A stretch of 64,000 nt of DNA from Prevotella sp. (GTDB lineage Bacteria > Bacteroidota > Bacteroidia > Bacteroidales > Bacteroidaceae), in the NCBI GenBank assembly GCA_024680755.1, contig JAILBT010000006.1, forward strand, positions 1 through 64,000, given 5' to 3'. The translations under genes were made by a program, and so were the position numbers. Below the pieces are notes generated by a model. It made no database searches, was not told the DNA's origin, and saw nothing but the letters and a program-made list of their open reading frames with translations. Below, one piece after another: positions 7,367 through 57,834 of this stretch. Each line of letters begins with the position of its first letter. Position 1 is the first letter of the stretch.

Positions 7367-7375
7367 GGGGGAGAT

Positions 7376-7459
7376 GAAAGATTAAAGATTAAAGATGAAA
7401 GATGAAAGATGAAAGATGAAAGATTAAAGATTAAAGATTAAAGATGAAAGATGAAAGAT
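7376..7459. repeat. 7-bp tandem repeat array ([g/t]aaagat)12
   Basis: Twelve uninterrupted copies of gaaagat or taaagat start 10 bp after the trmB stop. A diverged copy (taaaatt) follows. The array occupies most of the 159-bp gap before pfp. No promoter or hairpin was recognised in this gap. Confidence 0.95.
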
Positions 7460-7525
7460 TAAAATTTCGCCATATCGAACAAGACAAAAGACATCACTAA
7501 AACGATAACACACACACAAAAAGCA

Positions 7526-11748: not shown

Positions 11749-11916
11749 AGGCTGAGCATACCCTCCTGCCCGCCGGTTCAGTACACTGCGCCATTGGCAC
11801 AGTCGCCTCCCACCCCGTTATCAAGCCATCGCAAAAGCATGACATTATCCTCAACTCCAAGGACTACACTTTATCTACAGGATAAAACAACAGAACAAAC
11901 CAAAACCATAGTGAAT

Positions 11917-13821
11917 ATGAAAACATCTATCAAAAAACAAACGCTGCTGCTGGCCACCATCGTCGTGGCCCTGCTTGCAGCCGCCTGCAGTTCTGACGAA
12001 GACCTGGAGACAACCATCACCGACGGAGCAGAGCGCGGAGTGGTGAAGACAGAGTTCTCGCTGTCGTTTCCATCGACAATAGGAATTGGAACACGCATGG
12101 GCGCAGGCACCGTGCAAGAAGGCACAAGCTCGACAGTATTCAGGGGAATACAAAACATGGTGCTGGTGCCGTTCAGCGAAGGTTCTATAAATGGAACAAC
12201 GACGAAATTCGGCGACAACATCACTCTGCCTGCAACCAACATCGCCCTATATACCGACTTCACTGCCAACCACGCAGACAACACAAACCACTCGAAGGTA
12301 TATACCAACGTGGCGGTACCAATCGGAACGAAAGGCTTCCTCTTCTACGGAAAAGCCACAAAAGCAGGTAGCGACGAGACCGACCATTTCACCTACGGCA
12401 ACGTGGCTGTAAAACAGACCACCGGCGTGCCTGCGACGACAACGATTCTCACGCAGCCGAATTTCAGTTCCACACCAAATGAGTTGAGCTTTGCTCCGGT
12501 GTCTATCGTGAGTACCAATGCTGCCGGCACCAATGGCAACAATTTGGCAAGCTACTTGTCAGCTGTGGCTTCTGCTCACTACACAGATGCAAACTCTGTT
12601 GTTCAATACTGGTCGGGAACACAGAGTATGGCTATGCGCTCTCTGCTTGACGAACTGATGACATCTCATGCCGGCTCATCGCGCAACGTGCTGGCTGCCA
12701 TGCAGAAAATATATTCACTGTTGAAGGGCAACAGCGACGCGCTGTCTCAGGCTATCTGCACTGCCATCACAGAACATAAGATAAACAACGAGGCTGCTGT
12801 CTCAGTCTCAGCGGGTGGTGTGCTTTCGTTCATCGAAGGAAAAGGACTGGACAACTATCCCAGCAACCTGCCCGACGGCTCCGCCTTTATCAGTTTTACG
12901 CCTATTGCAGACAGCCATAACGGAACCGTCAGCTGCACTACATCAACATCAAATGACAATACGGGCCTAAACATTCCGGACCTGACAACCTACGCCTACC
13001 CTGCCGAACTATATTATCACGGCAACAGTACGATTCATGTAGCCGGGCAGTCGATGTCAAGCAGTTATACCAGCAGCAACAGCTGGGCGCAAGTGCTGGA
13101 AGCCTACACCAGTGCAACGGGAGGTGCCGCTAACGGCACTGTCAGCCGCACCACACGCTCAATAGCTATCAGCAAGCCTGTTCAGTACGGCGTGGGCCGA
13201 CTTGACCTGACGGTGCAAGCGTATAAAAACAGCAGTGGCGTCACATCACTGGACGATGCGCTCGGAACGGCGATCACACTGAAGAACGGAGAAACAAATC
13301 TATTTCCGCTGACGGGTGTGCTCGTAGGCGGGCAGAAAGCCGTGGGCTGGAATTTCTCTACACCCACAGGCAGCGAATATACCGTCTATGACAAGAGCAT
13401 ACCTGAAGGCATCGCCCTCACATCGGCAGTCTCTGCTGCCAACTATACGCTGTTGTTTGAGACTGCAGATGCCGCATCTGCCGAAGACAAAGTAAAAATT
13501 GCACTTGAGTTCCAGAACAATTCCGTCGTGACATTCAAGGGACGTAATGGCTATATCTATCCTAACTGCCGCTTCTATCTGGTGGGTGAGTTGACACCAT
13601 ACAGCAACAACACCACCCACTATACAGGCAAAACGGGCGATGAGAATCTAATTAAAAAAGCCTTCGTTCAAGACTATAAGACCACGGTGAGCATACAGGT
13701 AGCGTCACTGGCAAATGCATATAACGTGCTTCCCGACCTGAAACTACCTGAGCTTGAACTGGGTCTATCGGTCAACTTAGAGTGGCAGCAAGGCATTGAT
13801 CAGACCATCACCATACAATAA
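11917..13821 (+). CDS. Fimbrillin family lipoprotein, paralogue 1
   Basis: A 634-aa predicted pilin of the FimA/Mfa1 superfamily. The lipobox is LLAAACSS with C24 as the lipidated cysteine. A conserved TRM about 55 residues later, then FRGIQNMVLVPF, marks the start of the N-terminal beta domain; in this superfamily an Arg-specific protease removes the first strand so subunits can polymerise by strand exchange. Shared downstream blocks are PVQYGVGRLDL, GVLVGGQKAVGWNF and FYLVGEL, ending in LGLSVNLEW. The ORF track starts at 11794, but the ATG at 11917 gives the proper signal peptide. It is longer than P. gingivalis FimA or Mfa1 and less GC-rich than the next two paralogues. Confidence 0.88.
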   Translation: MKTSIKKQTLLLATIVVALLAAACSSDEDLETTITDGAERGVVKTEFSLSFPSTIGIGTRMGAGTVQEGTSSTVFRGIQNMVLVPFSEGSINGTTTKFGDNITLPATNIALYTDFTANHADNTNHSKVYTNVAVPIGTKGFLFYGKATKAGSDETDHFTYGNVAVKQTTGVPATTTILTQPNFSSTPNELSFAPVSIVSTNAAGTNGNNLASYLSAVASAHYTDANSVVQYWSGTQSMAMRSLLDELMTSHAGSSRNVLAAMQKIYSLLKGNSDALSQAICTAITEHKINNEAAVSVSAGGVLSFIEGKGLDNYPSNLPDGSAFISFTPIADSHNGTVSCTTSTSNDNTGLNIPDLTTYAYPAELYYHGNSTIHVAGQSMSSSYTSSNSWAQVLEAYTSATGGAANGTVSRTTRSIAISKPVQYGVGRLDLTVQAYKNSSGVTSLDDALGTAITLKNGETNLFPLTGVLVGGQKAVGWNFSTPTGSEYTVYDKSIPEGIALTSAVSAANYTLLFETADAASAEDKVKIALEFQNNSVVTFKGRNGYIYPNCRFYLVGELTPYSNNTTHYTGKTGDENLIKKAFVQDYKTTVSIQVASLANAYNVLPDLKLPELELGLSVNLEWQQGIDQTITIQ

Positions 13822-13845: not shown

Positions 13846-15828
13846 ATGAAAAAACTTTCAAATCTTCTCCTGCTGGGCGTCATGACGCTCACAGGTGCCA
13901 CGCTCTTCACCGCTTGCACGAGCGAGAATGATACCGTGGCCGAGGAGGTGAACCCCACTTTCGACGGACAAAGCGTCAAGACGCAGTTTGCCATCAACAT
14001 TCCGCAGGCAAACAGCTCTACGCGTATGTCAGCCACAACCACACAGAACGACGGTAATTTCCGTGGCATACAAGACCTGTACCTGTTCCCTCTGTCAACA
14101 GAGCCTACAGGTACCACCCCGTTCCCGTATGCTAACATCAAACTGGGCGAGAGCAACGGTGACTACACCCAAATTACCGACAACAGACAGCAGCGTCTCT
14201 ATTCTGACGTGAACATCGCCGTGGGAACGAACAACTTCCTCTTCTACGGCGAAGCCACACACGGCTCACTAAGCTCAATAGCCGACAGGAAGATCAACGG
14301 CATACTGGACAAGACCCTCAGCACCGACCTGGCCAACACGTCGGCCATCACGTTCGACCTGGTGCAGATAGCCAGCGCCTCGCTGCTGAGCACCGCAAAG
14401 ACAGCCCTGCTGAAGATAATGAACGACGTGGCAGCCGCAAAATACAACGACGGCACCGACCACTACTGGCGCGACCTGAAAGCCACAGATACCGACAAGA
14501 CCTACGCCGCGCTGCAAGAGGCATACACGCAGTTTACCCAGACCGACCGCTACTACAACGGCTCGGCCGAGGGTGTGCGCCTGGCTGTGCAGGCACTGTT
14601 CAACAACGTCTATTACACCAAGAAAGGTTCCACCAACGCCGTGGTCGTCGGTGTGTGCGACGCCATCATGAACATACTGGCCGGTGTACCTGATGCCACC
14701 ACAAAAGCGGTGACACCAGACGCCAACAAGCCCTTCAATGCTACCTACGACAGCGAGAAAGACGGCAAAGAGTCTGCCACGTCGGGCAATTTCCTCGCCG
14801 ACCCCTACACTCTGGCCTACAATAGCACAGATGCCGGCACGACCAACTTCCCCGTCGGGCAGGGCCTGCCCCAGGGCGCTGCACAGATGAAATGTGCAAA
14901 GAGCAGCGACGTGGCCACCTTCAGCTATGTCAACCCCATCGGCTTCTATGGCAATGACGGCAATGCCACCGACATTGAGAACCTGCGCTATCCAGCCTCG
15001 CTGCAGTACTATGTCAACACCCCGCTGAAGGCCACCAACAAGACACTCACCACCAGCGACTGGCCGCAAACCACGACTGCGTGGGCCACGGATGCGACGT
15101 GGACAGGATGGACCGACGCCGTGAGCGCTTCGACAAAGAACATCGCCCTCAGAGACAACATACAGTATGGCGTGGCACGCCTGGCCCTACAGGTGAAGTG
15201 TGCCGATGCCGCCACTCTGAAAGACAACTCTGCGGCCGCCGGCTACGAGGCCGACCAAGACATTTCGTACACCGGCTTCCAGGTGACGGGCGTCTTCGTG
15301 GGCGGACAACCACAGCGGGTGGGCTGGAACTTCCTGCCCGTCAGCGGCACCAGCTTCGACCGCGTGGTGGTGGACGACCAGATGAACACCACCATCACGG
15401 CCACCCGGGCCACCTACAGCGCCAAGAACTACACCCTGCTGCTGGACAACTATAAGGCCGATGCCACCGACACCGAGAAGCAGGTGAACGTGTGCATCGA
15501 GCTGACCAACAGCACGGGCCGTGACTTCTACGGACAGGACGGACTGATACGCGCCGGACAGAAGTTCTACCTCGTCGGACGACTGGACCCCAACGCCACC
15601 ACCGGCAAGTCAGGCGAAATCAACTATCCCACCACCCGCTACCCGGCAAAGAACAAGGAGCGCGTCTTCATGCAAGACTTCACCACCACCGTGCAGCTCA
15701 CCATCACCAGCCTGAAGGGTGCCTACGTCACCATTCCCGACCTGCGCATACCGCAGATACAGCTCGGACTGTCGGTGGACCTGCAGTGGAACCCGGGTAT
15801 CACCTACGAGATCAGCACCTTCCAGTAA
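13846..15828 (+). CDS. Fimbrillin family lipoprotein, paralogue 2
   Basis: A 660-aa second pilin-like subunit, 24 bp after paralogue 1. The signal peptide ends in LFTACTS, with C24 lipidated. The same architecture is visible: SSTRM (likely Arg cleavage site), FRGIQDLYLFPLS, NFLFYGEA, NIQYGVARLALQVKC, GVFVGGQPQRVGWNF, KFYLVGRLDP and a C-terminal IQLGLSVDLQWNPGITYEI, the probable donor strand. It is closest to paralogue 3. Compared with paralogue 1 it carries the extra motif VGQGLPQGAAQM near residue 340. Likely a structural or minor shaft subunit; which of the three is major cannot be told from sequence. Confidence 0.88.
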   Translation: MKKLSNLLLLGVMTLTGATLFTACTSENDTVAEEVNPTFDGQSVKTQFAINIPQANSSTRMSATTTQNDGNFRGIQDLYLFPLSTEPTGTTPFPYANIKLGESNGDYTQITDNRQQRLYSDVNIAVGTNNFLFYGEATHGSLSSIADRKINGILDKTLSTDLANTSAITFDLVQIASASLLSTAKTALLKIMNDVAAAKYNDGTDHYWRDLKATDTDKTYAALQEAYTQFTQTDRYYNGSAEGVRLAVQALFNNVYYTKKGSTNAVVVGVCDAIMNILAGVPDATTKAVTPDANKPFNATYDSEKDGKESATSGNFLADPYTLAYNSTDAGTTNFPVGQGLPQGAAQMKCAKSSDVATFSYVNPIGFYGNDGNATDIENLRYPASLQYYVNTPLKATNKTLTTSDWPQTTTAWATDATWTGWTDAVSASTKNIALRDNIQYGVARLALQVKCADAATLKDNSAAAGYEADQDISYTGFQVTGVFVGGQPQRVGWNFLPVSGTSFDRVVVDDQMNTTITATRATYSAKNYTLLLDNYKADATDTEKQVNVCIELTNSTGRDFYGQDGLIRAGQKFYLVGRLDPNATTGKSGEINYPTTRYPAKNKERVFMQDFTTTVQLTITSLKGAYVTIPDLRIPQIQLGLSVDLQWNPGITYEISTFQ

Positions 15829-15870: not shown

Positions 15871-18051
15871 ATGACGACTCGTCACACACACAGCATGGCA
15901 GCCCTCGTGGGCGCAGCCGCAATGACGCTCGCCTCCTGCTCGGCCGACGTGGCCGAGCAGGGGCAGGCCGACGGCGGGGCTGACGGTCAGCAGGCAGTGA
16001 AGGTGATGTTTGCCTTCAACGTGCCCTACGGCGGCACCAAGGCCACACGCATGACAGGCGCGATGGTGCAAGACGGCGTGACGGCCGACAGTCCCGCCGG
16101 CTACCGCGGCATGCAAGACATCAACATCATGCCGCTGCCAGCGCAGCCGCTCACCACGCAGGACAACGCCTTCCCCTTCGAGAACGTCAGCCTGACCGAC
16201 GCAACGGTGCAGGTGACATCGGAGTATAGCGCCAACTTCTACAAGGATGTCAACATACCCGTAGGCACCAGCAGCTTCCTCTTCTACGGCGAGGCACAGC
16301 ACGGCAGCCTGACCTCACAGGCCGACATGTTCGACAATGGCATTCTGGACAAGACCGTCAACCCCGCCACCAACCGCTCGACCAACGACGTGACCTTCTC
16401 GCTGCGGCAGATAGCCTCCGACGGCCAACTCTCTGCAGCCAAGACCGCACTGCTGGCCATACTGAACGACATTGCCGGCACCGAGGGCTGGGGCGCCACC
16501 GCGGCCGCCACCCTGGGCGATGCCGACTATGCCCTGGGCGATGCCTACAAGGCGTTCACCGCCGCCACGGGCATACGCTGCGGCTCGGCCGGTGCCATAC
16601 GGCTGACCGTGCAGGCACTCTACAACCGCATCAGCCGTGTGAAGAGTCAATACGCCGCAGCCTCTGCACAGGCAGCACTGGCGCAGGCCATACTGACAAA
16701 CATCGAGAATCATTTTGACGTGGCTGCCACAGGCGAAACAGGTGCCTCAGAGACGTCGCCAGCATACGCAAAGGACGCTTTCGCCCTGAGCTACAAAGAC
16801 CGCTACGACGAGGCCACCACCACCTTCCCCGTGGCACAGGGCCTGCCCGAGGGCGCCGCACAGCTGGGCTTCTCTGCCGGCTCGTTCAGCTACGTTGACC
16901 CCAAAGTGCTGTCGGGCGTGGCCACCACAGGCGTCAGCACAGACCGCTTCTGCTACCCGCCCTCGCTCGAGTATTTCGTCGATACGCCGCTGCGCTCGTC
17001 GGGCATAGAATACCAGAGCGGCGCTGACTGGCCCGCACAGAAAGCCAACGAGTGGGAGAACGACGACAACTGGACCGGCAGCAGCGAAGAGTGGACACCC
17101 ACGGTGACCGCCAGGACAAAGAGCATCGCCCTGCGCAACAACATCTACTACGGCGTGTCGCGGCTGGTCACCACCGTGCGCTGTGCCGCCACGTCGCTCA
17201 CCGACAACTCGGCTCAGACCGACGGCGACGACCTGAACATCAGCGTCGGCAACGCCGACGACATTGCCGGGGCCGACCCCGCCACGCTGAAATGCTTCCT
17301 GCTGACGGGCATCATGGTGGGTTCGCAGCCCAAGACCGTGGGCTGGAACTTCCTGCCCACCAGCACATCGACCGGACAGGCCGCCACCACCAACCGCGAG
17401 CAGGTGGTCTATGACCGACGCATGAACACCAAGCTCCTTTCGTGGGTGGAGAATGTCGTGCAGCAGAAGACAGACACCGACGGCAACCCGCTCTACACCG
17501 ACGCCACGACAGGCGGCGAGACCACCGACGCCGACGGCAACACGCCCATCATGGAGACCGTGGAGGTGACGCGGAGCGAAAACCTTCCGCCGATAGTGAT
17601 GCAGGCCGGCTCGGCCGACGAGGCCGCCAGCAAGCTGGGAGTGAACCACACACTGCTCCTGGACAATTTCAACCCCGACGCCGCCACGCAGGATGCCGCC
17701 CGCATCTGCATCGAACTGGAAAACCACACCGGACAGGACTTCTACGGGCAGGACGGACTCGTGCTGAACGGACAGAAATTCTACCTCGTGGGCGAGCTGG
17801 CGGCTCCAGCCGAGGGCAGCATTGCCTGGGTGAAGAGTGGCAACGCCTCATACACATCACGCTTCCCCCAGTACGGCACCGAGCGCGCCTTCGTCATGGA
17901 CTACACCACGCAGGCCAACCTCGTCATCACTGACCTGAAGAAAGCCTACGTCACCATTCCCGACCTGCGCGTGCCTAAGCTCTCGCTTGGCCTGTCTGTA
18001 GACCTGACATGGCGCCCGGGTATCACCTACCAGGCCATCATGGACTTCTGA
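15871..18051 (+). CDS. Fimbrillin family lipoprotein, paralogue 3
   Basis: A 726-aa protein, the longest of the three tandem fimbrillins. Lipobox LASCS with C23. Shared motifs are TRMTGAMVQDG, YRGMQDINIMPLP, SFLFYGEAQHGSL, VAQGLPEGAAQLGF, NIYYGVSRL, GIMVGSQPKTVGWNF and KFYLVGEL, with the ending LSLGLSVDLTWRPGITYQ. Extra length comes from an Asp/Thr-rich insertion around residues 525-570 (KTDTDGNPLYTDATTGG), probably a surface loop. It starts 42 bp after paralogue 2. The next gene is in the same reading frame, 27 nt beyond this stop codon. Confidence 0.88.
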   Translation: MTTRHTHSMAALVGAAAMTLASCSADVAEQGQADGGADGQQAVKVMFAFNVPYGGTKATRMTGAMVQDGVTADSPAGYRGMQDINIMPLPAQPLTTQDNAFPFENVSLTDATVQVTSEYSANFYKDVNIPVGTSSFLFYGEAQHGSLTSQADMFDNGILDKTVNPATNRSTNDVTFSLRQIASDGQLSAAKTALLAILNDIAGTEGWGATAAATLGDADYALGDAYKAFTAATGIRCGSAGAIRLTVQALYNRISRVKSQYAAASAQAALAQAILTNIENHFDVAATGETGASETSPAYAKDAFALSYKDRYDEATTTFPVAQGLPEGAAQLGFSAGSFSYVDPKVLSGVATTGVSTDRFCYPPSLEYFVDTPLRSSGIEYQSGADWPAQKANEWENDDNWTGSSEEWTPTVTARTKSIALRNNIYYGVSRLVTTVRCAATSLTDNSAQTDGDDLNISVGNADDIAGADPATLKCFLLTGIMVGSQPKTVGWNFLPTSTSTGQAATTNREQVVYDRRMNTKLLSWVENVVQQKTDTDGNPLYTDATTGGETTDADGNTPIMETVEVTRSENLPPIVMQAGSADEAASKLGVNHTLLLDNFNPDAATQDAARICIELENHTGQDFYGQDGLVLNGQKFYLVGELAAPAEGSIAWVKSGNASYTSRFPQYGTERAFVMDYTTQANLVITDLKKAYVTIPDLRVPKLSLGLSVDLTWRPGITYQAIMDF

Positions 18052-18078: not shown

Positions 18079-19122
18079 TTGCGACCAAAGAGAGACATAT
18101 CACGACTGCTGCGCGCAGCGCCCGCCACGCTGATAGCGGCGTGCTGCGCGCTCTGCTCGTGCAGCTACATCGACGAGGACCTGACCGACTGCGGCACGGA
18201 CATGGACCTGACCTACTCGCTCAGTCTGACGACCAACATCGTGACCGAGCTGCAGACCGAGCTGACCACCACCACCGAGGTGGCCCTGGGCCAGCGGCTG
18301 CAGCAGCAGCTGGCCAACGTGTTCCGGCGCTATGCCAACGACGTGGACCTCTCTTTCTATACCAACGACTCGCTGCGCGCACACCACGAGCAGCACACCA
18401 TGAACGCGGGCGAGGCCAGCTACACGCTCTACCTGCCCGTGAACGACTACCACCACCTGGCACTGGCCAACATCGCCATGGAGCAGCAGGTGGACTATGT
18501 CGCCGACAGCCATGTGGCCACGGCCATGCTGCTGCAGCACGCAGCCGACACCTTGCGCCAGCACACGGCCGGACTCTTCACCGCACGCAAGGAGGTGAAC
18601 ATCAGCGACACCACACGCCACTTCGATGTCAGGCTCTACATGGCCAACTGCGCCTGCGCGCTGGTGCTCAGGGCCACACAGCCCGAACGGGTGCGCCAGA
18701 TAGACACATACGTCACCGGCGTGGCTAACGCCTTCAGCCTCAGCGACAGCACATACCACTTCACCCACAACCCCATCATACGCACCGAGCAGCTGGACAT
18801 CGGCGACCTGACCGACTCGCTCTTCTGCCAATATACGGTGTGCTTCCCCAGCCACGACGCGCTGCCGGCAGCCGCGCGTGCCACCGGCGACGTGACCGAC
18901 GACGACGCAGGCCTGTGGCAGATCCACTGCTACGTCACCCTGCCCGACGGCAGCGTGACGCGCAACGTGCTGAACATAGGCCGCGCCCTGCGCGCCGGCA
19001 ACCTCAACATCGTGAAAGCCGTCATCAACACCGACGGCACGCTCAAAACCGTCAGCCCGCAGGTGGGCGTCAGCGTGACGCTCGACTGGCGCAGCGGCGG
19101 CACCTACACGCCAGATCTATAG
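18079..19122 (+). CDS. FimB/Mfa2-type fimbrial anchor lipoprotein
   Basis: A 347-aa predicted anchor that fixes the pilus to the outer membrane and limits its length, as FimB and Mfa2 do. The N-terminal signature CSYIDEDLTDC is typical of the family, with C28 (lipobox LCSC) as the probable lipidated residue. The rest is beta-rich and ends LTLDWRSGGTY-like, again fimbrillin style. The start is TTG: codons between the upstream in-frame stop (18049) and 18079 contain no ATG or GTG, and the next Met lies past the lipobox. The 27-bp spacing suggests coupling to paralogue 3. Position after the pilins matches known fimA-fimB and mfa1-mfa2 orders. Confidence 0.82.
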   Translation: MRPKRDISRLLRAAPATLIAACCALCSCSYIDEDLTDCGTDMDLTYSLSLTTNIVTELQTELTTTTEVALGQRLQQQLANVFRRYANDVDLSFYTNDSLRAHHEQHTMNAGEASYTLYLPVNDYHHLALANIAMEQQVDYVADSHVATAMLLQHAADTLRQHTAGLFTARKEVNISDTTRHFDVRLYMANCACALVLRATQPERVRQIDTYVTGVANAFSLSDSTYHFTHNPIIRTEQLDIGDLTDSLFCQYTVCFPSHDALPAAARATGDVTDDDAGLWQIHCYVTLPDGSVTRNVLNIGRALRAGNLNIVKAVINTDGTLKTVSPQVGVSVTLDWRSGGTYTPDL

Positions 19123-19203: not shown

Positions 19204-21042
19204 GTGGCAACAAACAAGCTGACATACACCACCATTGCAGCACTGCTGGCAACGCTGCTGGCAAGCTGCCGCGGCGAGGACGAGGCCTACGGGCCCGACC
19301 GCGCCGCCGGTCAGCATGTGGCGGCACAGATGTGGGTCGCCCTGGAGCACACCACCACACGCGCCGCCACACCGGCCGCCACACGGCAGACAGGCAGCGT
19401 GGCGCAGGCCGACGGCACGTTCCGCGGACTGAAGCGACTGACGCTGATACCCTTCAGCCTCAGCACCGTGCCATCCACAGGCGAGACCGTGGGCCAGGAC
19501 GCCACACGCCGCGCCGACAACCTCGAGCTGGGAGCCATTGCACCCGACGGCCTCTATGCCGGCAGCGGCTCGCACCTGTATGACAACGTCAGCCTGACCA
19601 TCGGCACCAACGCCTTCCTGCTCTATGCCGAAGCCACTGACGACACTGGCAGCGACAGCGCCGACGGTGCCATCGTGGGCAGCGGACTCGACGGCAGCAC
19701 ACCCGATGCCATCAGCTTCAGACCGAAGCAGATATGCCCCGACATGACAGAGGCTCAGACACAGGCCGATGCCATGACCACCTATCTGACCCAGCTGGCC
19801 GCCACAACGACAGCCACGCTGACATGGGCCGACGTGTCGTCGGGACTGCTGCAGGGCCTCTATGCCGAGCTGACGCAGCTCACCGCCGGCAACAGCGCCA
19901 GCCTGCTGGCCATGATGCAGAGCATGTACAGCCGCCTGCTGACGGCCTCGCTCGCCGGCGAACAGGACGAGCTGCGGCAGCAGATAGTCCGCAACATGAA
20001 GGTGGGACGCAAGGGCGACGGCTGGGGCGACGAGCAGGACGCAGACCTCAGCGACATGGTGTTCACCGCCACGCGCGACGGCCGCCTCTTCACCCTCGAC
20101 TGGAACGACGCCTACCAGGGCACAACCTTTGCCGACTACCCGCGCTGCTTCAGTCTGCCCGACGGTGTGGCCGCGCTGCAATGGGACGACCAGGAGAAGC
20201 GCTTCGGGGCCGTCGCCACAGGCACGCCCAACAACGTGGGCAACTCTGCCCTACCCCTGACCGACTTTGTCCATCCGCTGCCACTCTGCTACCGCGCCAA
20301 CACGCCCATCAGCGTCAGCCGCAGCTCGAAGGCCGACAGATATAACGCTGCCGACACCTGGGCCACCATCTACGGCAGCTACACCGACGGCCACACCGTG
20401 AGCCGCGACACACGCTCAGTGGCACTGCAGCACCCCGCACAGTATGCCGTGGGCCGACTGGACGTGCTGCTCAAGGCACGCGCCGCCATCATCACCGACA
20501 GCCACGGGCTGCCCGTGGATATGAGCCGCGTGGCGCTGACGGGACTCATCGTCACCGGCCAGCGCAGCGTGGACTACACCTTCACACCCGACCCCGACGA
20601 CACACACACCTACAGCATATACGATAGCTACGACCCGACGGCCACCGACGCCATCACCCTGGCCACCAACGTGGGCAAGCATAGCACCGACACAGACGCA
20701 CGACTGACGCACACACTCGTGCTGCAGACACCGGCCGACGGCCAGCCGGTGTACATCTATTTTGAGTTTCTCAACCAGACGGGCCACGACATATCGGTGA
20801 GCAACGGTCTCGTGCCCGACGGCTGCCACTTCTACCTCTGCGGCACAGTGACGCCGGCCGCAGGCGAGATGGTGTTTGAGCAGGACCATGTGGCCACCAT
20901 CACTGGCACCGTCAGCTCGCTCGCCGGGGCATACAACATACTGCCGCCGCGCCAGCACGCCTTCGGCTTCGACATGCAGGTGGCCGTCAGCGACTGGACA
21001 GACCAGGGCAGCGCCGCCCCCCACCCCGTCTATAACTGGTAG
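19204..21042 (+). CDS. Fimbrillin-like lipoprotein, paralogue 4
   Basis: A 612-aa protein with lipobox LLASC (C22). It shares the fimbrillin blocks of the three tandem pilins: TTTRAATPA (Arg site), FRGLKRLTLIPFS, AFLLYAEA, AQYAVGRLDVLLKA, GLIVTGQRSVDYTF, CHFYLCGTV, and a closing strand FGFDMQVAVSDW. It is the most diverged copy, and its position after the anchor suggests a minor or tip-proximal accessory subunit such as Mfa3/4 or FimC/D-like proteins. The start is GTG at 19204: the reading frame back to the anchor's TAG stop (19120) has no ATG, and this GTG gives a complete signal peptide. It is followed by a 9-bp repeat array. Confidence 0.82.
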   Translation: MATNKLTYTTIAALLATLLASCRGEDEAYGPDRAAGQHVAAQMWVALEHTTTRAATPAATRQTGSVAQADGTFRGLKRLTLIPFSLSTVPSTGETVGQDATRRADNLELGAIAPDGLYAGSGSHLYDNVSLTIGTNAFLLYAEATDDTGSDSADGAIVGSGLDGSTPDAISFRPKQICPDMTEAQTQADAMTTYLTQLAATTTATLTWADVSSGLLQGLYAELTQLTAGNSASLLAMMQSMYSRLLTASLAGEQDELRQQIVRNMKVGRKGDGWGDEQDADLSDMVFTATRDGRLFTLDWNDAYQGTTFADYPRCFSLPDGVAALQWDDQEKRFGAVATGTPNNVGNSALPLTDFVHPLPLCYRANTPISVSRSSKADRYNAADTWATIYGSYTDGHTVSRDTRSVALQHPAQYAVGRLDVLLKARAAIITDSHGLPVDMSRVALTGLIVTGQRSVDYTFTPDPDDTHTYSIYDSYDPTATDAITLATNVGKHSTDTDARLTHTLVLQTPADGQPVYIYFEFLNQTGHDISVSNGLVPDGCHFYLCGTVTPAAGEMVFEQDHVATITGTVSSLAGAYNILPPRQHAFGFDMQVAVSDWTDQGSAAPHPVYNW

Positions 21043-21050: not shown

Positions 21051-21143
21051 CACCCACAACACCCACAACACCCACAACACCCACCCCACCCACAACACCC
21101 ACAACACCCACAATACCCACCCACAACACCCACAATACCCACA
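21051..21143. repeat. 9-bp tandem repeats (cacccacaa)n abutting a start codon
   Basis: About ten copies of cacccacaa, with cacccaccc and cacaatacc variants, fill the gap between two fimbrillin-like genes and end directly at the ATG at 21144. The array is C/A-only on the coding strand, so the mRNA leader should be unstructured. Confidence 0.93.
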
Positions 21144-22262
21144 ATGTCCCTCCCACATCACCATATCCTCCCCCCGACCCTCGCTGCCACGGCTGCTCTG
21201 GCGTTGCTGTCGGCCTGCCGCCAGGACGACACCCCCGCCCCCGCGCCCAAGGCCCGCGTCAGCCTCTACGCCTCGACGCAGCGGCTCGTCCCCGACGGCG
21301 CAGCGCACGCGCCGGCCGTGTCGCCCCGCAAGGCACCCGCCACCACAGCCGACTACACCCCGCTGATGGTTGACGAACAGGATGCCGTCGCCATCACCCT
21401 GCTCTTCGTCAGCCACGACGACCCCACCGAGCAGACAATAAAAAACTTCTTCTGGAGCAGCAACAACACCACCCCCGCCGTGACGCTTTGGGAGCCCGCC
21501 GCGGCCATCGACGAGGGCAGCTACGATGTCTATGGCTTCATGCCCGCCGTGGCAGCCACCGCCTGCACACTCATACCCGCCGATGCCGACCACGGGCCGC
21601 GGCTGACGCTCAACGGTCTCTCGGCAGCAACGCCACAGGACGTGTGCTGCGTGGTGGGTGTGGCGCGCGAGCCCGACAACACCAAGTTCATACTCGGCAC
21701 CGGCAGTCAGGACGTGGAGCCGGGCAGCTATAGCTTCACCGCCGAAGAGGGCAACAACACCATGTATGTGCTGATGCACCACCTGTTTGCCCGTCTGACG
21801 CTGTCGTACAGCGTGAGTGAGGCCTACAGCCGCCTGCGCACCATACGCCTGCGCAGCGTCAGCGTCGCCATGCGCCACGGCACAGTGAACGCCACCATAA
21901 CCCTGCCCACGGCCACCAGCGCCCTGAGCGCCACCTTCGAGGCGGCAGCGGGTGCCACGGCGGCAGAGCAGACCTTCTTCACCGGCGACATGGAGCTGAC
22001 GACAACACCGCAAGTCGTCAGCGCCTTCCTCGCACCCATGAACACGGCCGAAGACCGCCGGCTGACGCTCAGCTCAACATACGATGTCTATGACACGAAG
22101 GGAGCGCTGGTGCGCGCCGACTGCCACGCCACCAACACATGGAGCATCGCGCCAACGCTGACCCCTGGCGACAGCTATGCCATCTCGGCCGTGGTGGACC
22201 CCACATATCTCTATCAGCTCTCCGGCAACGACCTGGACAACCTGATAGCCCTAAGCAACTGA
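21144..22262 (+). CDS. Mfa-like (fimbrillin) lipoprotein
   Basis: A 372-aa lipoprotein with lipobox ALLSAC (C25). The central stretch MYVLMHHLFARLTLSYSV resembles the 'H-LA-L-F-I' strand of Mfa-like-1 proteins, and the overall size fits that group better than the four longer fimbrillins. It lacks the GWNF and FYLVG blocks, so it belongs to a different branch. I infer a minor pilus or tip-adaptor subunit between the fimbrillins and the giant proteins. Its stop overlaps an ATG (tgatg) that opens a 19-codon ORF leading to the next gene. Confidence 0.75.
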   Translation: MSLPHHHILPPTLAATAALALLSACRQDDTPAPAPKARVSLYASTQRLVPDGAAHAPAVSPRKAPATTADYTPLMVDEQDAVAITLLFVSHDDPTEQTIKNFFWSSNNTTPAVTLWEPAAAIDEGSYDVYGFMPAVAATACTLIPADADHGPRLTLNGLSAATPQDVCCVVGVAREPDNTKFILGTGSQDVEPGSYSFTAEEGNNTMYVLMHHLFARLTLSYSVSEAYSRLRTIRLRSVSVAMRHGTVNATITLPTATSALSATFEAAAGATAAEQTFFTGDMELTTTPQVVSAFLAPMNTAEDRRLTLSSTYDVYDTKGALVRADCHATNTWSIAPTLTPGDSYAISAVVDPTYLYQLSGNDLDNLIALSN

Positions 22263-22321
22263 TGCCTCAGATTACTCTGATTACTCTGATTACTCTGATT
22301 ACTCTGAAAACTCCGATTTGA
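22262..22321 (+). other. Possible 19-aa coupling leader peptide, (ITL)n
   Basis: ATG at 22262 overlaps the previous stop (tgATG) and the ORF ends with TGA at 22319-22321, which overlaps the TTG start of the 4066-aa gene (TTGA). Its codons are four 9-bp att-act-ctg repeats, encoding MPQ(ITL)4KTPI. The geometry fits translational coupling, but a repeat-made peptide could be accidental. Confidence 0.35.
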
Positions 22322-25300
22322 ACAGACACCTGACCATAACAGAAGCCCTCTCAGCCCTCACGCTGCTCTGCCTCCCTGCCCAGCCCGTCCTGGCCGGCGA
22401 CGACGACGTGCCCGCCGAACTGACGATAGGCGGCAACGTCTATGGCGGCGGCAACGCCGGCAACACCGGCGGCAACACCCGCGTGACAATCTACGGCGGC
22501 GACCTGGGCCGCGTGTTCGGCGGAGCCGCACAGGCCAACGTGGGCGGCAACAGCTGCGTGGACATCGACGGCGAACATGCCTCGTCGTATATCGTCATCG
22601 ACAACGTCTATGGCGGCAACGACATAGCCGGCACGATAGGCGCCTCGACCACGCTGACAAAGACCATGCCCTTTACCCCGGCCGTCAACAAACCCGCCGT
22701 GGGCACAGAGGGCGACGACGACTATGTGCCACCCACCGTGCTCGTGGACAACACATGGAGCACCTTCGTGCGCACATCGACCAGGACGACAGACCCGGAG
22801 AAGATTTACATCGGACAACTCTACGGCGGTGGCAACGGCGACTACGACTACACCACCGACCATGTCGGACAGACGGCACCCGACCTCAGCAAGACATACC
22901 TTGAGCTGCTGGGCGGCTCGATAGTGAACGCCTTCGGCGGCGGAAACATGGCCACCGTGACAGACAACGTGGTCATTCACCTCAACAACCCGAGCACACC
23001 CGTGAGCAACATCTACGTCAAAGACGGCCGGGAAGTCAGTCCGGGCACCGCCGGCAGCGCCGACCTGCTGACGGAGGAGCGCTTCAAGCGGATGGGCTTC
23101 AACTACAAGTTCACCTACCCCAAGAGCGGAGAGTTTCAGATAAGCAACCTCTTCGGCGGCAACAACAAGGTGGACATGGCCGTGCGGCCGGAGTGGAGCC
23201 TGATGGACGGACGCGTGCGCAACCTGTACAGCGGCGGCAACGAGGGCCGCATGACCAGCCAGGAGGGACTGCTGATGCAGATAGCCGAAGGCTCGACGCT
23301 GACCGTGGACAACGTCTATGGCGGCTGCCGCAAGGCCGACGTGCGCCCGCTCTACCGCGACACGGGCACACCCGTGCCCAAGGAGGCCATCAAGCTGGAC
23401 CCCAACCCATACAAGATACCCGACGGCTTCGCGGCCCGCGTGCGCGTGCTGGGCGGCAACGTCAACAACGTCTATGGCGGCAACGACATCTCGGGCGACG
23501 TCTATGGAGGCAACACCGTGGGCATCTACACCACCATACACGGCAACGTCTATGGCGGAGGCAACGGCTCGTATGCCTACACGGACAACAAGCGGCTGAA
23601 GGACGACCTGCTCTGGCGCGACTTCTACTACGACCCCAGCGCGATAAAGGGACGCCAGGCCGGAGGCGACTTCACACAGACAGAGTCGGTAGAGGCACTC
23701 AACACCTACCGCCCCAACGCCGAGCAGGTGTCGATACGCATTGCAGGCACCGCAGCAAAGCCCACCATCGTCGAGGGAGCCATCTATGTGGGAGGCAACA
23801 GCGCCACGCTGGAGAGCTACACGTCAGAAGGCGTGCCAACGGCCGAGCTGAAGATAGGCTCATACGCCATCGCCGACAAGGTGTTCCTCGGCAACAACGG
23901 CGAGAACATGGTCGATGCCTCGGCAGACGGCGTGCTGGTGAAATATGCCGGCGGAGTAGAAATGGCCGACGGGACACACATCGACGACTTCAGCTCGCTC
24001 GACCTCACGCAGGCAGACATCTTCAGCAAGTATATGGAGGGCTGCGCCATGAAGATCATACCGAGCATAACCTTCGACACCTACCCGCGCGAACCCGTCA
24101 GCTACCTGCCGCACACGTCGCTGTTCGGCTCCTTCTACTGTGGCGGCAACGTGGGCAGCATGCTCTTCAACGGCAAGACCACCATCAATTTCGACCACGA
24201 GATCGTCATCTTCGACAAGGTGGTGGGCGGCTGCAACAACGCCAACGTGCCCGTGCAGACGGCCACCGTAGATGGCGTGGCCGGCACGCAGCTGAACGCC
24301 CGCTACGAGGGAGGCTTCCTCACGCCGGGCTCTGCCGGCCCCACCGTGGGCGACGACACGCCCATTGCCGACAAGCTGGAGCTGAACCTGTCGAAACTGC
24401 GCATCGAACCCAAGCGATGGATAGGCACAAAGGACGCGCAGGGCAACTACACGTCTTACTCTCTCGATGCCCAAGGCAACCGCCAGTTAGAGTGGAACAC
24501 GATAGCTGCCACGGAGGGCAGCGTGAGCCTGTTCACCGATGTGGCCAACGGCACACGCACCGGCACGCCCAATGCCGACGACCTGAAACGCCGGCTGCAG
24601 GGCGGCAACATCTATGGCGGCTGTTACAGCTCGGGACACATCGACGGCAACGTGACGCTCAACATCAGCGGAACGGTGATTGACCGCACGAAGGTGTTCG
24701 ACCGCGTGACCAGCGGCAGCGACAAGATGTACGTGAACATCGAGAAGAAAGACTTCGTCATCAACGAGAGCAACTCAGGCGTCATACTCGACCTGCAGGG
24801 CATGGACCCGCTGGGCCGCGCGCTCAACGTGTTCGGTGGCGGCAAGGGTAAGGAGACCGAGGTGTGGGGCAGCACCACCGTCAACCTGACGCGCGGCTAC
24901 GTCTTCCAGATCTTCGGAGGCAGCGAGGACGGAGCCATCGGACGCGGCACATGGAACGCCGACACCCGGCGGTACGACTATGCCGACACCTACGACCCAC
25001 GCTTCAGCTGCACCATCAACATGCACAGCGCAGCGAGCGGCGCGGCCCGCACCACCGGCGAGAACGTCGAGACCAGCAACATGGCCGACGTGGAGTTTAT
25101 CTACGGCGGAGGCTTCGAGGGGCCCGTCCTGGGCGACACCCATGTATATCTGGGCAACGGCCGGGTGTTCAACAGCTTTGCCGGCTCGTGCAACGCCGAC
25201 ATCTGGGGCCACACCGAGACTTACATCGGTCTGGCCCTTGACGCCAACGGAGCCGAGGTGGCGGGCTTCCCCTGGGTGCGCGACAACACCTACGGCGGCA

Positions 25301-28300
25301 ACGACCTGGGCGGCACCGTATGGAACAGGGCCGATGCCAGCTTTGCCCACCGTCTGAGCCCATACATGCAGGCCGCCGACATGCAGGCCAAGATGTATGG
25401 CTACAGTGTGCCCGAGGGACAAGACACCGGCACCACACCGGCACTGACAGCAGCAGCATACACGGAGTATCGCTCGGGGCGCGTAGAGAACATCTTCGGC
25501 GGCTGCTATGGCGACTACGACTATGCCTCGACAGGCAGCTATGCCGCCTACAACGCCGGCAAGCCGTACATGCACGATACCTTTGTCAATTTCCGGCCGG
25601 TGCAGCGCAGCGGCAACAGCGTCAGCCGCGTGTTTGGTGCCGGACAGGGACACGCCAAGGGTGTCAACAACGACGTGGCCATCGACAAGATGCAAGACCG
25701 CAGCTATGTGCTGATAGACATACCGAACGACGAGACCAACCCCTTCGAGACCACCGAGGTGTTCGGCTCGGGCTCGTGGTGCGGACTGGGCATGAGGGCC
25801 GCCCTGCCGCCGGTCAAGGCCGACGCAGAGGGCGATGCCGACTTCGCCCTCAGGTGCGACACATACCAGGCCGGGGTCAGCAGAGACTACTCGGCCGTGA
25901 TAGACCTCTTCCGCGGCACGATAGGCAATGTCTATGGCGGCAGCTTCACCGAGGGACTGACACGCCGCACGGTGGTCAACGTCCCGTCTGTCTCGACCAT
26001 CACGGCCGCCAACCTCTTCGGCGGAGCATACGGGGCCGACCCGTTCTACCCCTGCGATGTCTATGAGGCGCAGGTCAACTACCACAGCGCCGCAGCCACC
26101 GTCGAAGGCAACATCTACGGCGGAAACAACATGGCCGACCGCACGCTCTACGGGCAGGTGAACGTCTCTGTGCCCGTCTGGCAGAACCGTGCCAAGGGCT
26201 ACAAGGCTACTATCTACGGAGGCGGCTTCGGTGTCAACTCCTGGTCGCAGTACACCGAGGTGAACCTGCTCAGCGGGGCCGACGTCTTTGAGGTCTATGG
26301 CGGCGGCGAGCAGGGCCGCGTTATCAACGTGCCGTCGCTGCTGAAATGGCAGAAGGACGTCAAGTCGTCTGACGCGTCGCTCGACCTCTTCATGTACGGC
26401 TATCCCGAGAACGGCCTCAGCAACATGCTGGCACGTCCAGCCATGCTCGACGGCACGTCGCGCTTCAACACCAACGTGCATATCCACGAAGGCGCATACG
26501 TGAGCAACTATGCCTACGGCGGCGGACTGGGCGACTCGACCGTCGTCAGCAGCGGCGACGTGATGGGCACAACATACATCGACCTGCTGGGCGGAAGGGT
26601 GAAGAAGGACATCTATGCCGCCGGCACACAGGGTGCCGTGCGCGACTACTACGGCGTGAAGGCGGGCTTCACCGACATCGCAGGCAACGCCGTGGCAGGC
26701 TTCACCGCCAGCGCCAACGTCTATCTCAAGGGCGGAGCCTGCCGCAACGTCTATGGCGGAGGATGGGCCGGTGCCGTGGGCAAACACGACGGCATAGAGA
26801 GGAAGACAACGGTCAACGGCAAGGAAGTGACATACTACGACTATCTGCCGGCCCCCACCACGGCCGACATCCCGGGCGAGACGCACGTCACCATAGGCGA
26901 CCTGGACGGGACATCGTTCGTCAACGGCATACCGACCGTCGAGCGCAACGCCTACGGCGGAGGAGAGGGCGGACCCGTCTGGGGCACCACATACACCACG
27001 CTGAACCGCGGATACATAGGCTACCGCTACTTCAGCAGCCAGGACGAGGCCGACACCGAAGCTGACCTGAAAGGCTACAGCGACGGCGGCGGCTACTATC
27101 AGGAGAAGCTGCACGACGAGACATGGGACGGCGACGGCACGAACCGACTCATCGACAGCGGCAACATCTTCGGCGGAGGATACATCGACAACAGCAGCGT
27201 CGATGCAAGCTATGTGAAGATGTATGGCGGACATGTGCGCAACGCACTCTTCGGCGGAGGCGAGATAGCCGCCGTGGGCCGTGGCGTCATCCATGCCTCG
27301 GGACCGGACAACTCCATACGCACCCTGCACGGCATCTACAAGGCGGGAAAGACCAACCTGGAAATGTTCGACGGACATGTGCATCGCAACGTGTTCGGCG
27401 GCGGACGCGGATACAACAACCTGGGCAAGGGCGGACGGCTGTATTCAGACGGATATGTGTTCGGACAGACAGAGGTGCACGTCCACGGAGGCGAGATAGG
27501 CACGGAGGAAGGCATCGCCCAAGGCCACGGAAACGTCTTCGGCGGCGGCGACATAGGCTACGTCTATAGCGCATACGAGATTGACGGCACACTGTATAAG
27601 GGAAAGAAGTCGGGCACACGCTACGACGATGGCGACGAGGGCTACTACTACAAGCACAACGGCACTGCCTTCGTCGATGACGCGGGTAACGCGCTGGGCG
27701 CGAAAGCCGAGAAGATTATGACCGAGGACTGCCGTGTGCTGATCGAGCCCCACTGCAAGGCTACGGCCGCCGTCACCATCGACGGCACCACATACGCCAA
27801 GGGCGACTTCATACCCACCACGCAACTGAACAAGCTGGGCAACAAGAACGCCGACAAGACCATCTGGGACAAGATCGACCCAGCGGGAATCGTCATACAC
27901 AACGCCGTGTTTGCCGGCGGAAACACATCGTCGGGCTCGTCGGCCGTCTATGCCAACGCAACCACCATCTTCGGCAACGCAACGGCATCGGTCAACGATG
28001 TCTATCACCGCGACCTCATCTCGCTCGGAACAAACCACGTCGGAGGCATCTACGGCGACGGAAACCTGACCTTTGTCGATGGCTACCGCGGACTGAACAT
28101 CACCAACTACGGCACCGACTACTACAGCATCGACAAGGAGATAACCATCGAACAGTATCACAACCTGCCACCGCGAGAGGCCGCCTACTACGAGCAGAGA
28201 TATAAGTGTATAAAGGAGTGTACCGACGACGACGGCACGACCTATCGTCCCAAGAACGACGACGATCCCAACTCGAGAGCCTCGACCCTGACAGCCGACG

Positions 28301-34300: not shown

Positions 34301-34518
34301 TCAACGTCAGTGCACGCCGCCATGCCATCGTGGTAAGCTCGACCCTCGCCACAACCGCCGAGGTGCGTATCACGAATCTCGCCGGCGCCACCGTCGCCGT
34401 CTTCACGATAGCCCCGGGCCAGACCGTCGAGACGCGCACCACCTTCCCCGGCGTCTATGTGGTCAACGCCCCCGAAGCCCACCTGCGCGGCAAGAAGCTA
34501 CGCGTGGGCGACAGGTAA
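22318..34518 (+). CDS. Giant exported NVYGGGN-repeat adhesin-like protein (4066 aa)
   Basis: An exported protein I do not recognise as a named family. Residues 1-26 form a signal peptide ending PVLAG. Residues about 38-1920 carry about 39 copies of a degenerate [NKR][VI][YF]GG[GN]x motif, each followed by a short beta-strand pair (for example GGNTRVTIYGGDL), suggesting a right-handed beta-solenoid with a glycine turn. Residues about 2350-3005 contain repeats of a 'xxYAxGxxIxxxxYxxL' module. An Ig-like stretch lies near 3058-3150 and a GLUG-like strand region (GYTVSGLAGSLFG) near 3260-3390. The last ~75 residues (VRITNLAG, then GVYVVNA and KKLRV) resemble a type IX secretion sorting-like domain. 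The TTG start at 22318 is the only one giving a signal peptide. A co-transcribed tip or surface adhesin is inferred. Confidence 0.8.
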   Translation: MNRHLTITEALSALTLLCLPAQPVLAGDDDVPAELTIGGNVYGGGNAGNTGGNTRVTIYGGDLGRVFGGAAQANVGGNSCVDIDGEHASSYIVIDNVYGGNDIAGTIGASTTLTKTMPFTPAVNKPAVGTEGDDDYVPPTVLVDNTWSTFVRTSTRTTDPEKIYIGQLYGGGNGDYDYTTDHVGQTAPDLSKTYLELLGGSIVNAFGGGNMATVTDNVVIHLNNPSTPVSNIYVKDGREVSPGTAGSADLLTEERFKRMGFNYKFTYPKSGEFQISNLFGGNNKVDMAVRPEWSLMDGRVRNLYSGGNEGRMTSQEGLLMQIAEGSTLTVDNVYGGCRKADVRPLYRDTGTPVPKEAIKLDPNPYKIPDGFAARVRVLGGNVNNVYGGNDISGDVYGGNTVGIYTTIHGNVYGGGNGSYAYTDNKRLKDDLLWRDFYYDPSAIKGRQAGGDFTQTESVEALNTYRPNAEQVSIRIAGTAAKPTIVEGAIYVGGNSATLESYTSEGVPTAELKIGSYAIADKVFLGNNGENMVDASADGVLVKYAGGVEMADGTHIDDFSSLDLTQADIFSKYMEGCAMKIIPSITFDTYPREPVSYLPHTSLFGSFYCGGNVGSMLFNGKTTINFDHEIVIFDKVVGGCNNANVPVQTATVDGVAGTQLNARYEGGFLTPGSAGPTVGDDTPIADKLELNLSKLRIEPKRWIGTKDAQGNYTSYSLDAQGNRQLEWNTIAATEGSVSLFTDVANGTRTGTPNADDLKRRLQGGNIYGGCYSSGHIDGNVTLNISGTVIDRTKVFDRVTSGSDKMYVNIEKKDFVINESNSGVILDLQGMDPLGRALNVFGGGKGKETEVWGSTTVNLTRGYVFQIFGGSEDGAIGRGTWNADTRRYDYADTYDPRFSCTINMHSAASGAARTTGENVETSNMADVEFIYGGGFEGPVLGDTHVYLGNGRVFNSFAGSCNADIWGHTETYIGLALDANGAEVAGFPWVRDNTYGGNDLGGTVWNRADASFAHRLSPYMQAADMQAKMYGYSVPEGQDTGTTPALTAAAYTEYRSGRVENIFGGCYGDYDYASTGSYAAYNAGKPYMHDTFVNFRPVQRSGNSVSRVFGAGQGHAKGVNNDVAIDKMQDRSYVLIDIPNDETNPFETTEVFGSGSWCGLGMRAALPPVKADAEGDADFALRCDTYQAGVSRDYSAVIDLFRGTIGNVYGGSFTEGLTRRTVVNVPSVSTITAANLFGGAYGADPFYPCDVYEAQVNYHSAAATVEGNIYGGNNMADRTLYGQVNVSVPVWQNRAKGYKATIYGGGFGVNSWSQYTEVNLLSGADVFEVYGGGEQGRVINVPSLLKWQKDVKSSDASLDLFMYGYPENGLSNMLARPAMLDGTSRFNTNVHIHEGAYVSNYAYGGGLGDSTVVSSGDVMGTTYIDLLGGRVKKDIYAAGTQGAVRDYYGVKAGFTDIAGNAVAGFTASANVYLKGGACRNVYGGGWAGAVGKHDGIERKTTVNGKEVTYYDYLPAPTTADIPGETHVTIGDLDGTSFVNGIPTVERNAYGGGEGGPVWGTTYTTLNRGYIGYRYFSSQDEADTEADLKGYSDGGGYYQEKLHDETWDGDGTNRLIDSGNIFGGGYIDNSSVDASYVKMYGGHVRNALFGGGEIAAVGRGVIHASGPDNSIRTLHGIYKAGKTNLEMFDGHVHRNVFGGGRGYNNLGKGGRLYSDGYVFGQTEVHVHGGEIGTEEGIAQGHGNVFGGGDIGYVYSAYEIDGTLYKGKKSGTRYDDGDEGYYYKHNGTAFVDDAGNALGAKAEKIMTEDCRVLIEPHCKATAAVTIDGTTYAKGDFIPTTQLNKLGNKNADKTIWDKIDPAGIVIHNAVFAGGNTSSGSSAVYANATTIFGNATASVNDVYHRDLISLGTNHVGGIYGDGNLTFVDGYRGLNITNYGTDYYSIDKEITIEQYHNLPPREAAYYEQRYKCIKECTDDDGTTYRPKNDDDPNSRASTLTADDILLLFKDGKNTTGMIVDGKPNAEYWTENGVLPVYAGRPMNTIQRADFCGVFGSRMVMQGAQDRVPEIVDYTNYTINRVREVSLNKKLSVIAADEADKEKKQHGNYFGIYNIVNYLGALTSDVNFGDAGDGKDKGDCGTGDTRTTDNKTTDAYEPEYDGQTFFGWKRSHIKDRTRNNGNSHNKVALASGVYLELTTEKSTGTGLREKDWGYITGVVELDLINVQPGIGGGFVYAKNVHGKRTATGLTHLTVGTLNADAVSRRQYRYSTQDSEKDEWQSSGNFVHSTQTIIDDCYNVSGKYKGGDDVAMPAHYWYIKGFVYVYDQYISAYTGSPNAYSKSVDIPLTITAASHGTMKLLNVQPNKYAFKKNSETELNEGGKLIINDVTYVKNDPISYWDWYLLSAAERGLFEDRTYVVNEDCWIGDTKYAAGKVLNESSYNTLRDNHPTVQVLADDGVTKRTADFDFVFRSSNNLSHDTGYILTYRVNNPKEWNTWYTEQNDAHHSETPREKNQTGGDDYDNGPTYRLKGDTGSLLGQRYYEESNVISKTVVDTYHDVTVEHADAIPTNDENDPGYDETKRQAKFQQAYVITERVSVEETTTGGTSTHHLNPGAIVSEDYRTAHSLTASSVPAYIATSTIQLNSTEYIYMNSKMSETEKQGYIDRTTAEMRELLPVEKISDTDLAAITKMEDLTSSQLSGLTYEQQKRLAQLINIRADIKANIVLAYYCTEPGLYGGNYYEAGKNYRGLEAWSSMSAADRKQFAFNYDALDLLIDPSFKGTVGEKWQYDGWNTSTDKPFATRAEAETNPAQYSLERHVDYTASYEGDGPLTLDTAVPVIGQAEPKTTLTAGDELTRETYESIPNEQRHYTTIDVKEAGDYYVVNTSFQIGNSSYAVGTTISHDDYRGLNDADKPYVTKFGFTAAQANQKFYYCREPYTIRTDAYGTSVTAQSVTATKGEGTDAVNASVSGSYAAGTTVPTGLVIDETTYDALVTKNLQKDFTIHGIAPTETSTLYVSRESDIYDLSKEKIITVIYQYDYEETDTRGNVTPISERHIVNIHLQFKSGIPIVEDIKAPEIVLPGDNVSLREPNVTPGAYEVTGGGWELFENIDDAESHTNGIEYSPNFDPLYWYQDGYLVAYYAKTYLGKTYSNTVKLGVANYHDLKRVMDDKLNHYYIDNEQVKREPKIYINDYSAAGQNGLKLFSDLIDLTHGKPLDGHTPLQRTAADVTKKPMRGGKYLEFFLRANQSAPAAEPGSPDTWTPIADGDGECFSGTLHGDGYTVSGLAGSLFGHLCGDVYNLGVTGTFTSAGIADTGEGYMENCWIASTAATGPAADTKPLFGNPSREGDNAVQMVNCYYLEDDDAAAKYTPHSGTHGTATRMTAQAFYNGQVAYNLNGHYLNRRYDMATGLTTTDPRHGNQQYVADRLRYGDFIYAAGTIPETAEPRLLTDADGNPVTDAEGYPSYAPIWPDDYIFFGQMLTYGHKDDRAHQPLPAHINKSGGLLTTRATAVNRVCRAPAYFRSAQMGVAHYNPGAVFAAQSADKTHSVYPGMTAIDFTGHDDIDWTRGAVSPVGGQANATTFFYPPLLDNDGLTGFTNADLTKNLLTYTPGPSDLSEADTKTYSVVRTALSEPAYTETAPDTYRTVAEQSVGSIHGHHVVKTGTDDDGADIYTATSDHLLVDRQDFNAPISYTFDGSHRMYYQRTPDTYAAFGPAGTTQGWEGISLPFTAELVTTQQKGEITHFYRCGADPDKGSIGHEYWLRAFAGDVTQKKDDQGNAISGVYEAAFAYPTAAPGSNADKTVTNTFLWDYYYAWNTRRDLNSDTYQQYYQADDDGTVATYPAYAFAQGATPYIVAFPGADYYEFDLSGQFRPSTAASEQPRQLERQVVTFASPTGTTIGVSDNERGTDGDGYAFRTNYLTQTFPAGTADTYTMNAEGTAYTLVPTASADPAAPVAPATVMPFRPYFVKTAAGGRESRSIVFSDDDDATLTPHAGSKTGGSLNVSARRHAIVVSSTLATTAEVRITNLAGATVAVFTIAPGQTVETRTTFPGVYVVNAPEAHLRGKKLRVGDR

Positions 34519-34524
34519 ACTCCA

Positions 34525-34601
34525 CGACACACACAACACACACAACACACACAACACACACGACACACACGACACACACATTAACACACATTAACACACA
34601 T
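34525..34601. repeat. 9-bp tandem repeats (acacacaac)n before a giant gene
   Basis: Copies of acacacaac, drifting to acacacgac and acacattaac, fill the 85-bp gap between two giant genes and run to within 3 bp of the ATG at 34604. No hairpin or promoter is visible, which supports co-transcription. Confidence 0.9.
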
Positions 34602-57833: not shown

Positions 57834-57834
57834 A

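Follow-up and report, generated by a model that had tools for sequence, protein, structure and literature searches.

Three consecutive open reading frames (ORFs) in a 64,000-nucleotide stretch of the genome of a rumen-type Prevotella sp. (assembly GCA_024680755.1, contig JAILBT010000006.1, positions 1 to 64,000; hereafter the window) encode giant proteins, P0001, P0002, and P0003, that share a glycine-rich unit, the GGG repeat. Descent of this repeat from one common ancestor in all three proteins is strongly supported. Whether the three together make up a single giant adhesin system of the cell surface that is attached to a type V (Mfa/FimA-like) pilus locus of the Bacteroidota, exported by the type IX secretion system (T9SS), and built on an undescribed solenoid, we judge to be an even question. 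In our assessment they belong to an uncatalogued, widespread Prevotella giant family that is associated with a fimbria-like operon; we see in them not a category of their own but a variation on the known biology of giant adhesins and type V pili. About a quarter of the sampled genomes of the genus, many of them from rumens, spend 20-30 kb on these proteins; the repeat is absent from Pfam families, PDB entries, and the literature that we found, and some of the frames exceed 8,000 residues.

Common origin of the GGG repeat

Repeats were counted with a strict motif, [VIAL][YF]GG, and a looser motif of the aromatic-G type, and both counts were compared with the expectation from composition shuffles. 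A first-pass annotation of this sequence had described the repeat as filling the N-terminal half of P0001, with about 39 copies and none after residue 1920. P0001 indeed contains 28 strict copies in residues 41-1740 (shuffle mean 1.3) and 36 looser ones in residues 41-1864 (shuffle mean 3.5), the latter close to the number proposed; the motif residues map to about 22438-27930, within the 22318-28080 that had been assigned to the repeat. Beyond this array there are only isolated matches at chance level, a lone strict one at residue 2726 (GLYGGNYY) and four stray looser ones, and the second half of P0001 has no repeat above that level. The further placement of the repeat in a second giant and at the C-terminus of the third is also correct: P0003 is filled with the same motif (53 strict copies), and P0002 has three strict copies in its last ~150 residues.

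Do these arrays share an origin? A profile built from P0001 units detects P0003 (E-value 6e-6) and the C-terminus of P0002 (4e-8), and a profile built from P0003 units detects the N-terminal half of P0001 (9e-6) and the C-terminus of P0002 (3e-8). Shuffled controls reached an E-value of about 0.1 at best, reversed sequences gave none, and the C-terminal half of P0001 gave 1.4. Profile-profile comparison of 33 P0001 homologs with 55 P0003 homologs returned a probability of 96% and an E-value of 3e-9. The first-pass annotation had named a failure of the repeat profiles to detect each other as fatal to a common origin; they do detect each other, at E-values from 3e-8 to 9e-6, and the same pattern of strand and turn recurs in two confident structural models described below.

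The annotation had also proposed asking whether repeats cluster by protein or by position. Units of P0001 cluster by position: for all 28, the nearest neighbor occupies the corresponding position in P0001 homologs of other species (position correlation 0.999), and the array was therefore fixed before the species split. Among P0003 units, 20 of 62 cluster by their own protein, their nearest neighbor being another P0003 unit. This is in line with the duplications visible in P0003, namely a super-repeat roughly 200 residues long, an internal similarity of up to 60% identity at an offset of about 920 residues, and a 600-residue terminal module that is present twice (Table 1). The repeats of P0001 are thus old and fixed, and those of P0003 are in part recent duplicates. 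P0003-type frames reach 8,200-8,350 residues in four genomes (G305, G178, G123, and G161), where a single frame matches the terminal module more than once, up to several times.

Predicted fold

AlphaFold models of P0003 residues 3122-3766 (predicted local distance difference test, pLDDT, 93; predicted template modeling score, pTM, 0.92) and of P0001 residues 1180-1790 (pLDDT 85, pTM 0.89) are almost wholly beta and solenoid-like. In both, each repeat ends its second strand with VYGGG, after which comes a glycine-rich turn. Neither model matches the PDB at an E-value below 0.001 in Foldseek, and the P0003 model has no significant match among viral structure models. The top PDB ranks, none of them significant, go mostly to beta-helices of autotransporters and to phage tail fibers, at E-values of 0.05 or worse; for the P0001 model the best matches are to antigen 43, non-significant with a best E-value of 0.09 and template modeling (TM) scores below 0.2.

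Sequence searches of the giants against Pfam, NCBIfam, and PDB returned nothing useful except the P0002 domains and the weak P0001 tail. In Pfam, P0001 and P0003 have zero matches at E-values up to 1, P0002 yields only Fn3_assoc, CHB_HEX_C_1, and RicinB_lectin_2 at E-values up to 0.1, and none of the three shows an autotransporter C-terminal translocator barrel or a TPS domain in the same scans. Comparison of 88 aligned members with Pfam gave no family, bar one stray DUF903 match, and we found no description of a YGGG repeat or of giant Prevotella proteins in the published literature. The GGG repeat is provisionally regarded as an undescribed beta-solenoid-like repeat, a judgment that leans on the predicted models.

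Genomic context and secretion

Judged from gene order and family matches, the gene layout upstream of P0001 is that of a type V (Mfa/FimA-like) fimbria locus. A DUF3575 gene is followed by six consecutive ORFs with lipobox-like motifs, among which the ORF at 18079-19122 supplies the Mfa2/FimB anchor gene by which a type V pilus locus is recognized; for the pilin-like ORFs, a single homolog reaches PF13149, and that below its cut-off. PDB sequence searches of three ORFs of this operon gave no informative match. Most of 20 sampled P0001 homologs are preceded, in conserved order, by DUF3575, Mfa2-like, and pilin-like genes, and in 19 of the 20 the gene next to the giant encodes a lipoprotein like that at 21144. 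P0003-type proteins, unlike the P0001 homologs, are neither located behind an Mfa2/DUF3575 operon nor provided with a T9SS tail.

The T9SS sorting-tail family TIGR04183 matches 22 of 26 tails of the P0001 family, with a best E-value of 2.5e-8. The T9SS translocon SprA/Sov is encoded in the same genome and on the same contig (TIGR04189, 2600 bits; G000:C70:65796-73133, locus L151), just to the right of the window and 13 kb past P0003. The first rung of P0001 begins a few residues past the signal peptide, as it does in most homologs, where only a few residues separate the rung from the apparent end of the signal peptide. At the opposite end of the array, nearly all of 58 P0003 homologs terminate on one and the same rung (Table 1), with a short extension at most.

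Fusion, co-inheritance, and distribution

Scanned for the end of P0003, 84,980 species genomes yielded 58 loci, titled Prevotella, Prevotellaceae, Bacteroidaceae, or Bacteroidales. Metagenome assemblies from rumens and ruminants account for most of them; cultured carriers are P. lacticifex JCM 34664, P. communis E15-14, and Prevotella sp. tf2-5. In 29 of the loci a single ORF contains both the P0002 core outside the repeats and the end of P0003. In seven, as in the window, they are two ORFs and the second has its own signal peptide; four look like frameshifts or assembly gaps, and 18 have no visible P0002 core. P0001 is fused to P0002 or P0003 at none of the 58. That P0002 and P0003 are one chain in 29 relatives indirectly supports their solenoids being neighbors in space. 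The suggestion in the first-pass annotation of homotypic packing between the three proteins is thereby strengthened for the P0002-P0003 pair only; a contact of P0001, which is never fused but strongly co-inherited, with the other two is hypothetical.

P0001 and P0003 are co-inherited. Relatives of P0001 occur in 105 and relatives of P0003 in 97 of 398 genomes of the genus (both in 89, P0001 only in 16, P0003 only in 8, neither in 285; Fisher p = 8.5e-62). The two types of gene share a contig in 68 of 85 cases, and their tails co-diverge (Mantel r 0.55, reached in 0 of 2000 permutations). Elsewhere in the order the locus is rare, with 5 of 294 genomes in three other families. Since the pattern is patchy, the distribution suggests loss or horizontal transfer.

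Table 1. Positions in the window of the giant ORFs, their parts, the upstream operon, and tandem arrays.
Feature	Position (strand)	Size or residues	Remarks
P0001	22318..34518 (+)	4066 aa	TTG start; signal peptide, N-half GGG solenoid, conserved unannotated C-half, degenerate T9SS type A tail
P0001 GGG-repeat solenoid (predicted)	22429..27930 (+)	~38-1870	
P0001 T9SS type A sorting-tail-like end	34327..34515 (+)		19.2 bits vs 23-bit cut-off
P0002	34604..41347 (+)	2247 aa	ricin-B-type lectin domains, three CHB_HEX_C/Fn3-associated domains, short C-terminal GGG solenoid
P0002 GGG solenoid end (predicted)	40541..41344 (+)	~1980-2247	final rung open GNVYGGGNKADVEG
P0003	41410..52710 (+)	3766 aa	signal peptide, then GGG solenoid throughout; open final rung, no T9SS tail
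P0003 internal copy of terminal module	44467..46236 (+)	1020-1609	
P0003 C-terminal module	50794..52692 (+)	3129-3761	conserved, 58 GTDB loci; family end GADIRGNVYGGGNNAEVTGNTNVxIGK
DUF3575 outer-membrane-type protein	9994..11748 (+)		E 7e-52; weak OmpA/TPR matches; first gene of fimbria-like operon
Pilin-like lipoprotein	11794..13821 (+)		lipobox AAAC; no Pfam match
Pilin-like lipoprotein	13846..15828 (+)		lipobox FTAC
Pilin-like lipoprotein	15871..18051 (+)		lipobox LASC
Mfa2-like anchor lipoprotein	18079..19122 (+)		PF08842, 27.6 bits, cut-off 21.2
Pilin-like lipoprotein	19204..21042 (+)		lipobox LASC
Fimbrillin-like lipoprotein	21144..22262 (+)		directly before P0001; homologue matches PF13149 (Mfa_like_1), E 2e-4, below cut-off
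Tandem arrays	1-224, 7372-7463, 21051-21144, 22266-22318, 34523-34580, 55175-55227, 57765-57834, 60900-61106, 63340-63390		7-9 bp units

Neighboring features

In many intergenic gaps, tandem arrays stand directly before genes, P0001 and P0002 included. They are possible expression switches. As a specific phase-variation mark of P0001 and P0002 they were dropped, because such arrays occur all over the genome (1.5 per 10 kb genome-wide, and 0.9 per 10 kb in relatives). A second DUF3575-type fimbria-like operon lies directly after the P0003 homolog in three relatives (L055 11711-20311, L067 11366-19803, and L089 11700-20297). Antisense to P0003, an open frame of 1728 residues (46459-51645, minus strand) is most likely a shadow of the biased P0003 codons. 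Directly downstream of P0003, an outer-membrane-type protein with two similar halves is encoded at 52975-54264 on the minus strand; it has no NCBIfam match above cut-off.

Discussion

How might a pilus operon and three giants work together? A signal peptide would take each giant into the periplasm, and the GGG repeats of all three would fold into a long beta-solenoid, each rung consisting of a strand (xTxVxIxGG), another strand with VYGG at its end, and a turn rich in glycine. Such a solenoid could act both as a stiff spacer or stalk and as a binding surface. The ricin-type lectin domains make the N-terminus of P0002 the likely head for binding carbohydrates, perhaps on plant fiber, host glycans, or neighboring cells. 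P0002 and P0003, one chain in 29 relatives, would be two halves of one solenoid, and P0001, by analogy with Mfa5, may be the T9SS-exported tip or surface protein. Repeat homology, a predicted solenoid-like fold, the operon context, the secretion tail of the P0001 family, fusion, and co-inheritance are results of the analysis; from them we infer a pilus-tip location, an adhesive function, and a crossing of the outer membrane by the tail-less P0002 and P0003. If the pilus-linked adhesin reading is true, it extends the type V pili of the Bacteroidota by a class of giant adhesins, offers a handle on Prevotella attachment in the rumen, and poses the question of the route by which tail-less giants cross the outer membrane beside a T9SS-exported partner.

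Several points weigh against it. The support is computational throughout, and the co-occurrence and Mantel statistics ignore species kinship. The P0001 tail in the window scores below the TIGR04183 cut-off, and P0003-type proteins have no recognized outer-membrane export signal, a T9SS tail being seen in 0 of 58. Mfa2 and DUF3575 excepted, no pilin-like gene in the window reaches the cut-off of a Pfam pilin family. One P0001 homolog, at locus L146, has no operon upstream, the single exception among the 20 sampled, and P0001 homologs are several times larger than the type V tip proteins that have been described.

A rival reading is a looser association, in which the giants are T9SS or surface adhesins, or a surface coat, that share only an operon with the pilus genes and have a role like that of SprB-type giant adhesins. 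We consider this possible, though doubtful. A T9SS tail alone suffices as a surface-attachment signal, the homolog at L146 has no pilus genes directly upstream, and tip pilins described to date are small (general knowledge; PMC12632263), but a conserved pilus-like operon before nearly every sampled P0001 homolog is hard to explain without functional coupling. It is improbable that the giants are secreted matrix or aggregation proteins, with GGG solenoids that, as in antigen 43, self-associate from cell to cell. Long repetitive solenoids, open rungs at the chain ends, and the antigen 43 structures among the weak best fold matches of P0001 would fit this role, but those matches are non-significant, an autotransporter domain is absent, and the self-association is hypothetical. 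A polymorphic toxin or contact-dependent inhibition system, in which the GGG region would be the stalk and the effector would be the C-terminal half of P0001, is hardly credible and was rejected: the resemblance is a general one, of a large exported repeat protein followed by a different C-terminal region, while that half is not hypervariable but conserved end to end, with an identity near that of the repeats (mostly 43-69%, 32-46% in the lowest block), matches no toxin family, ends in a stretch like a sorting tail, and is followed in the window not by a small immunity-like gene but, after 85 bases, by P0002. Low-complexity convergence of glycine-rich proteins, for which the 17% glycine of P0003 might speak, deserves next to no weight and is rejected on the 28-53 motifs against one or two in shuffles, the cross-detecting profiles with clean controls, and the P0001 repeat positions kept across species.

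Why do the arrays end in open rungs? One idea, which we think unlikely, is that the open solenoid ends are deliberate and that the giants stack end to end into a continuous intermolecular beta-solenoid, the T9SS-exported P0001 holding the tail-less P0002 and P0003 at the surface or on the pilus. It arises because the first rung of P0001 and the last rung of tail-less P0003 are bare, and because proteins that are separate here form a fused chain in relatives. If true, stacking would assemble several proteins of a new repeat fold into one very long modular adhesin.

Comparison with known systems

The locus most resembles that of the Mfa1 fimbria of Porphyromonas gingivalis, a type V fimbria, in having an Mfa2-type anchor and putatively lipidated pilin-like proteins; its tip protein, Mfa5, is the sole Mfa protein with a T9SS tail and depends on the T9SS for export (PMC7835359, PMC5954841). 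Like Mfa5, P0001 is large and has no lipobox, and most members of its family carry a T9SS tail at their end. Unlike P0001, Mfa5 is far smaller and has a von Willebrand factor A domain and immunoglobulin-like domains, whereas P0001 has a GGG solenoid and is followed by two more giants. The SprB-type adhesins of gliding Flavobacterium are repetitive surface adhesins of several thousand residues that are exported by the T9SS. By description P0001 is similar in size, repetitiveness, and predicted T9SS export, but its gene context is a pilus-like operon and not gliding genes.

The autotransporter beta-helices of antigen 43, UpaB, and Hap are long beta-solenoid surface adhesins, and antigen 43 self-associates. 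They are among the best-ranked, non-significant fold matches (Foldseek E-values of 0.05 or worse, TM scores below 0.25); unlike them, the giants have no autotransporter barrel and belong to another phylum with another secretion route. Giant1-5 of Apilactobacillus kunkeei, as outlined in PMC12863079, are very large extracellular proteins of a host-associated bacterium encoded by consecutive genes, and are in these described respects like the Prevotella giants, although they belong to a lactic acid bacterium.

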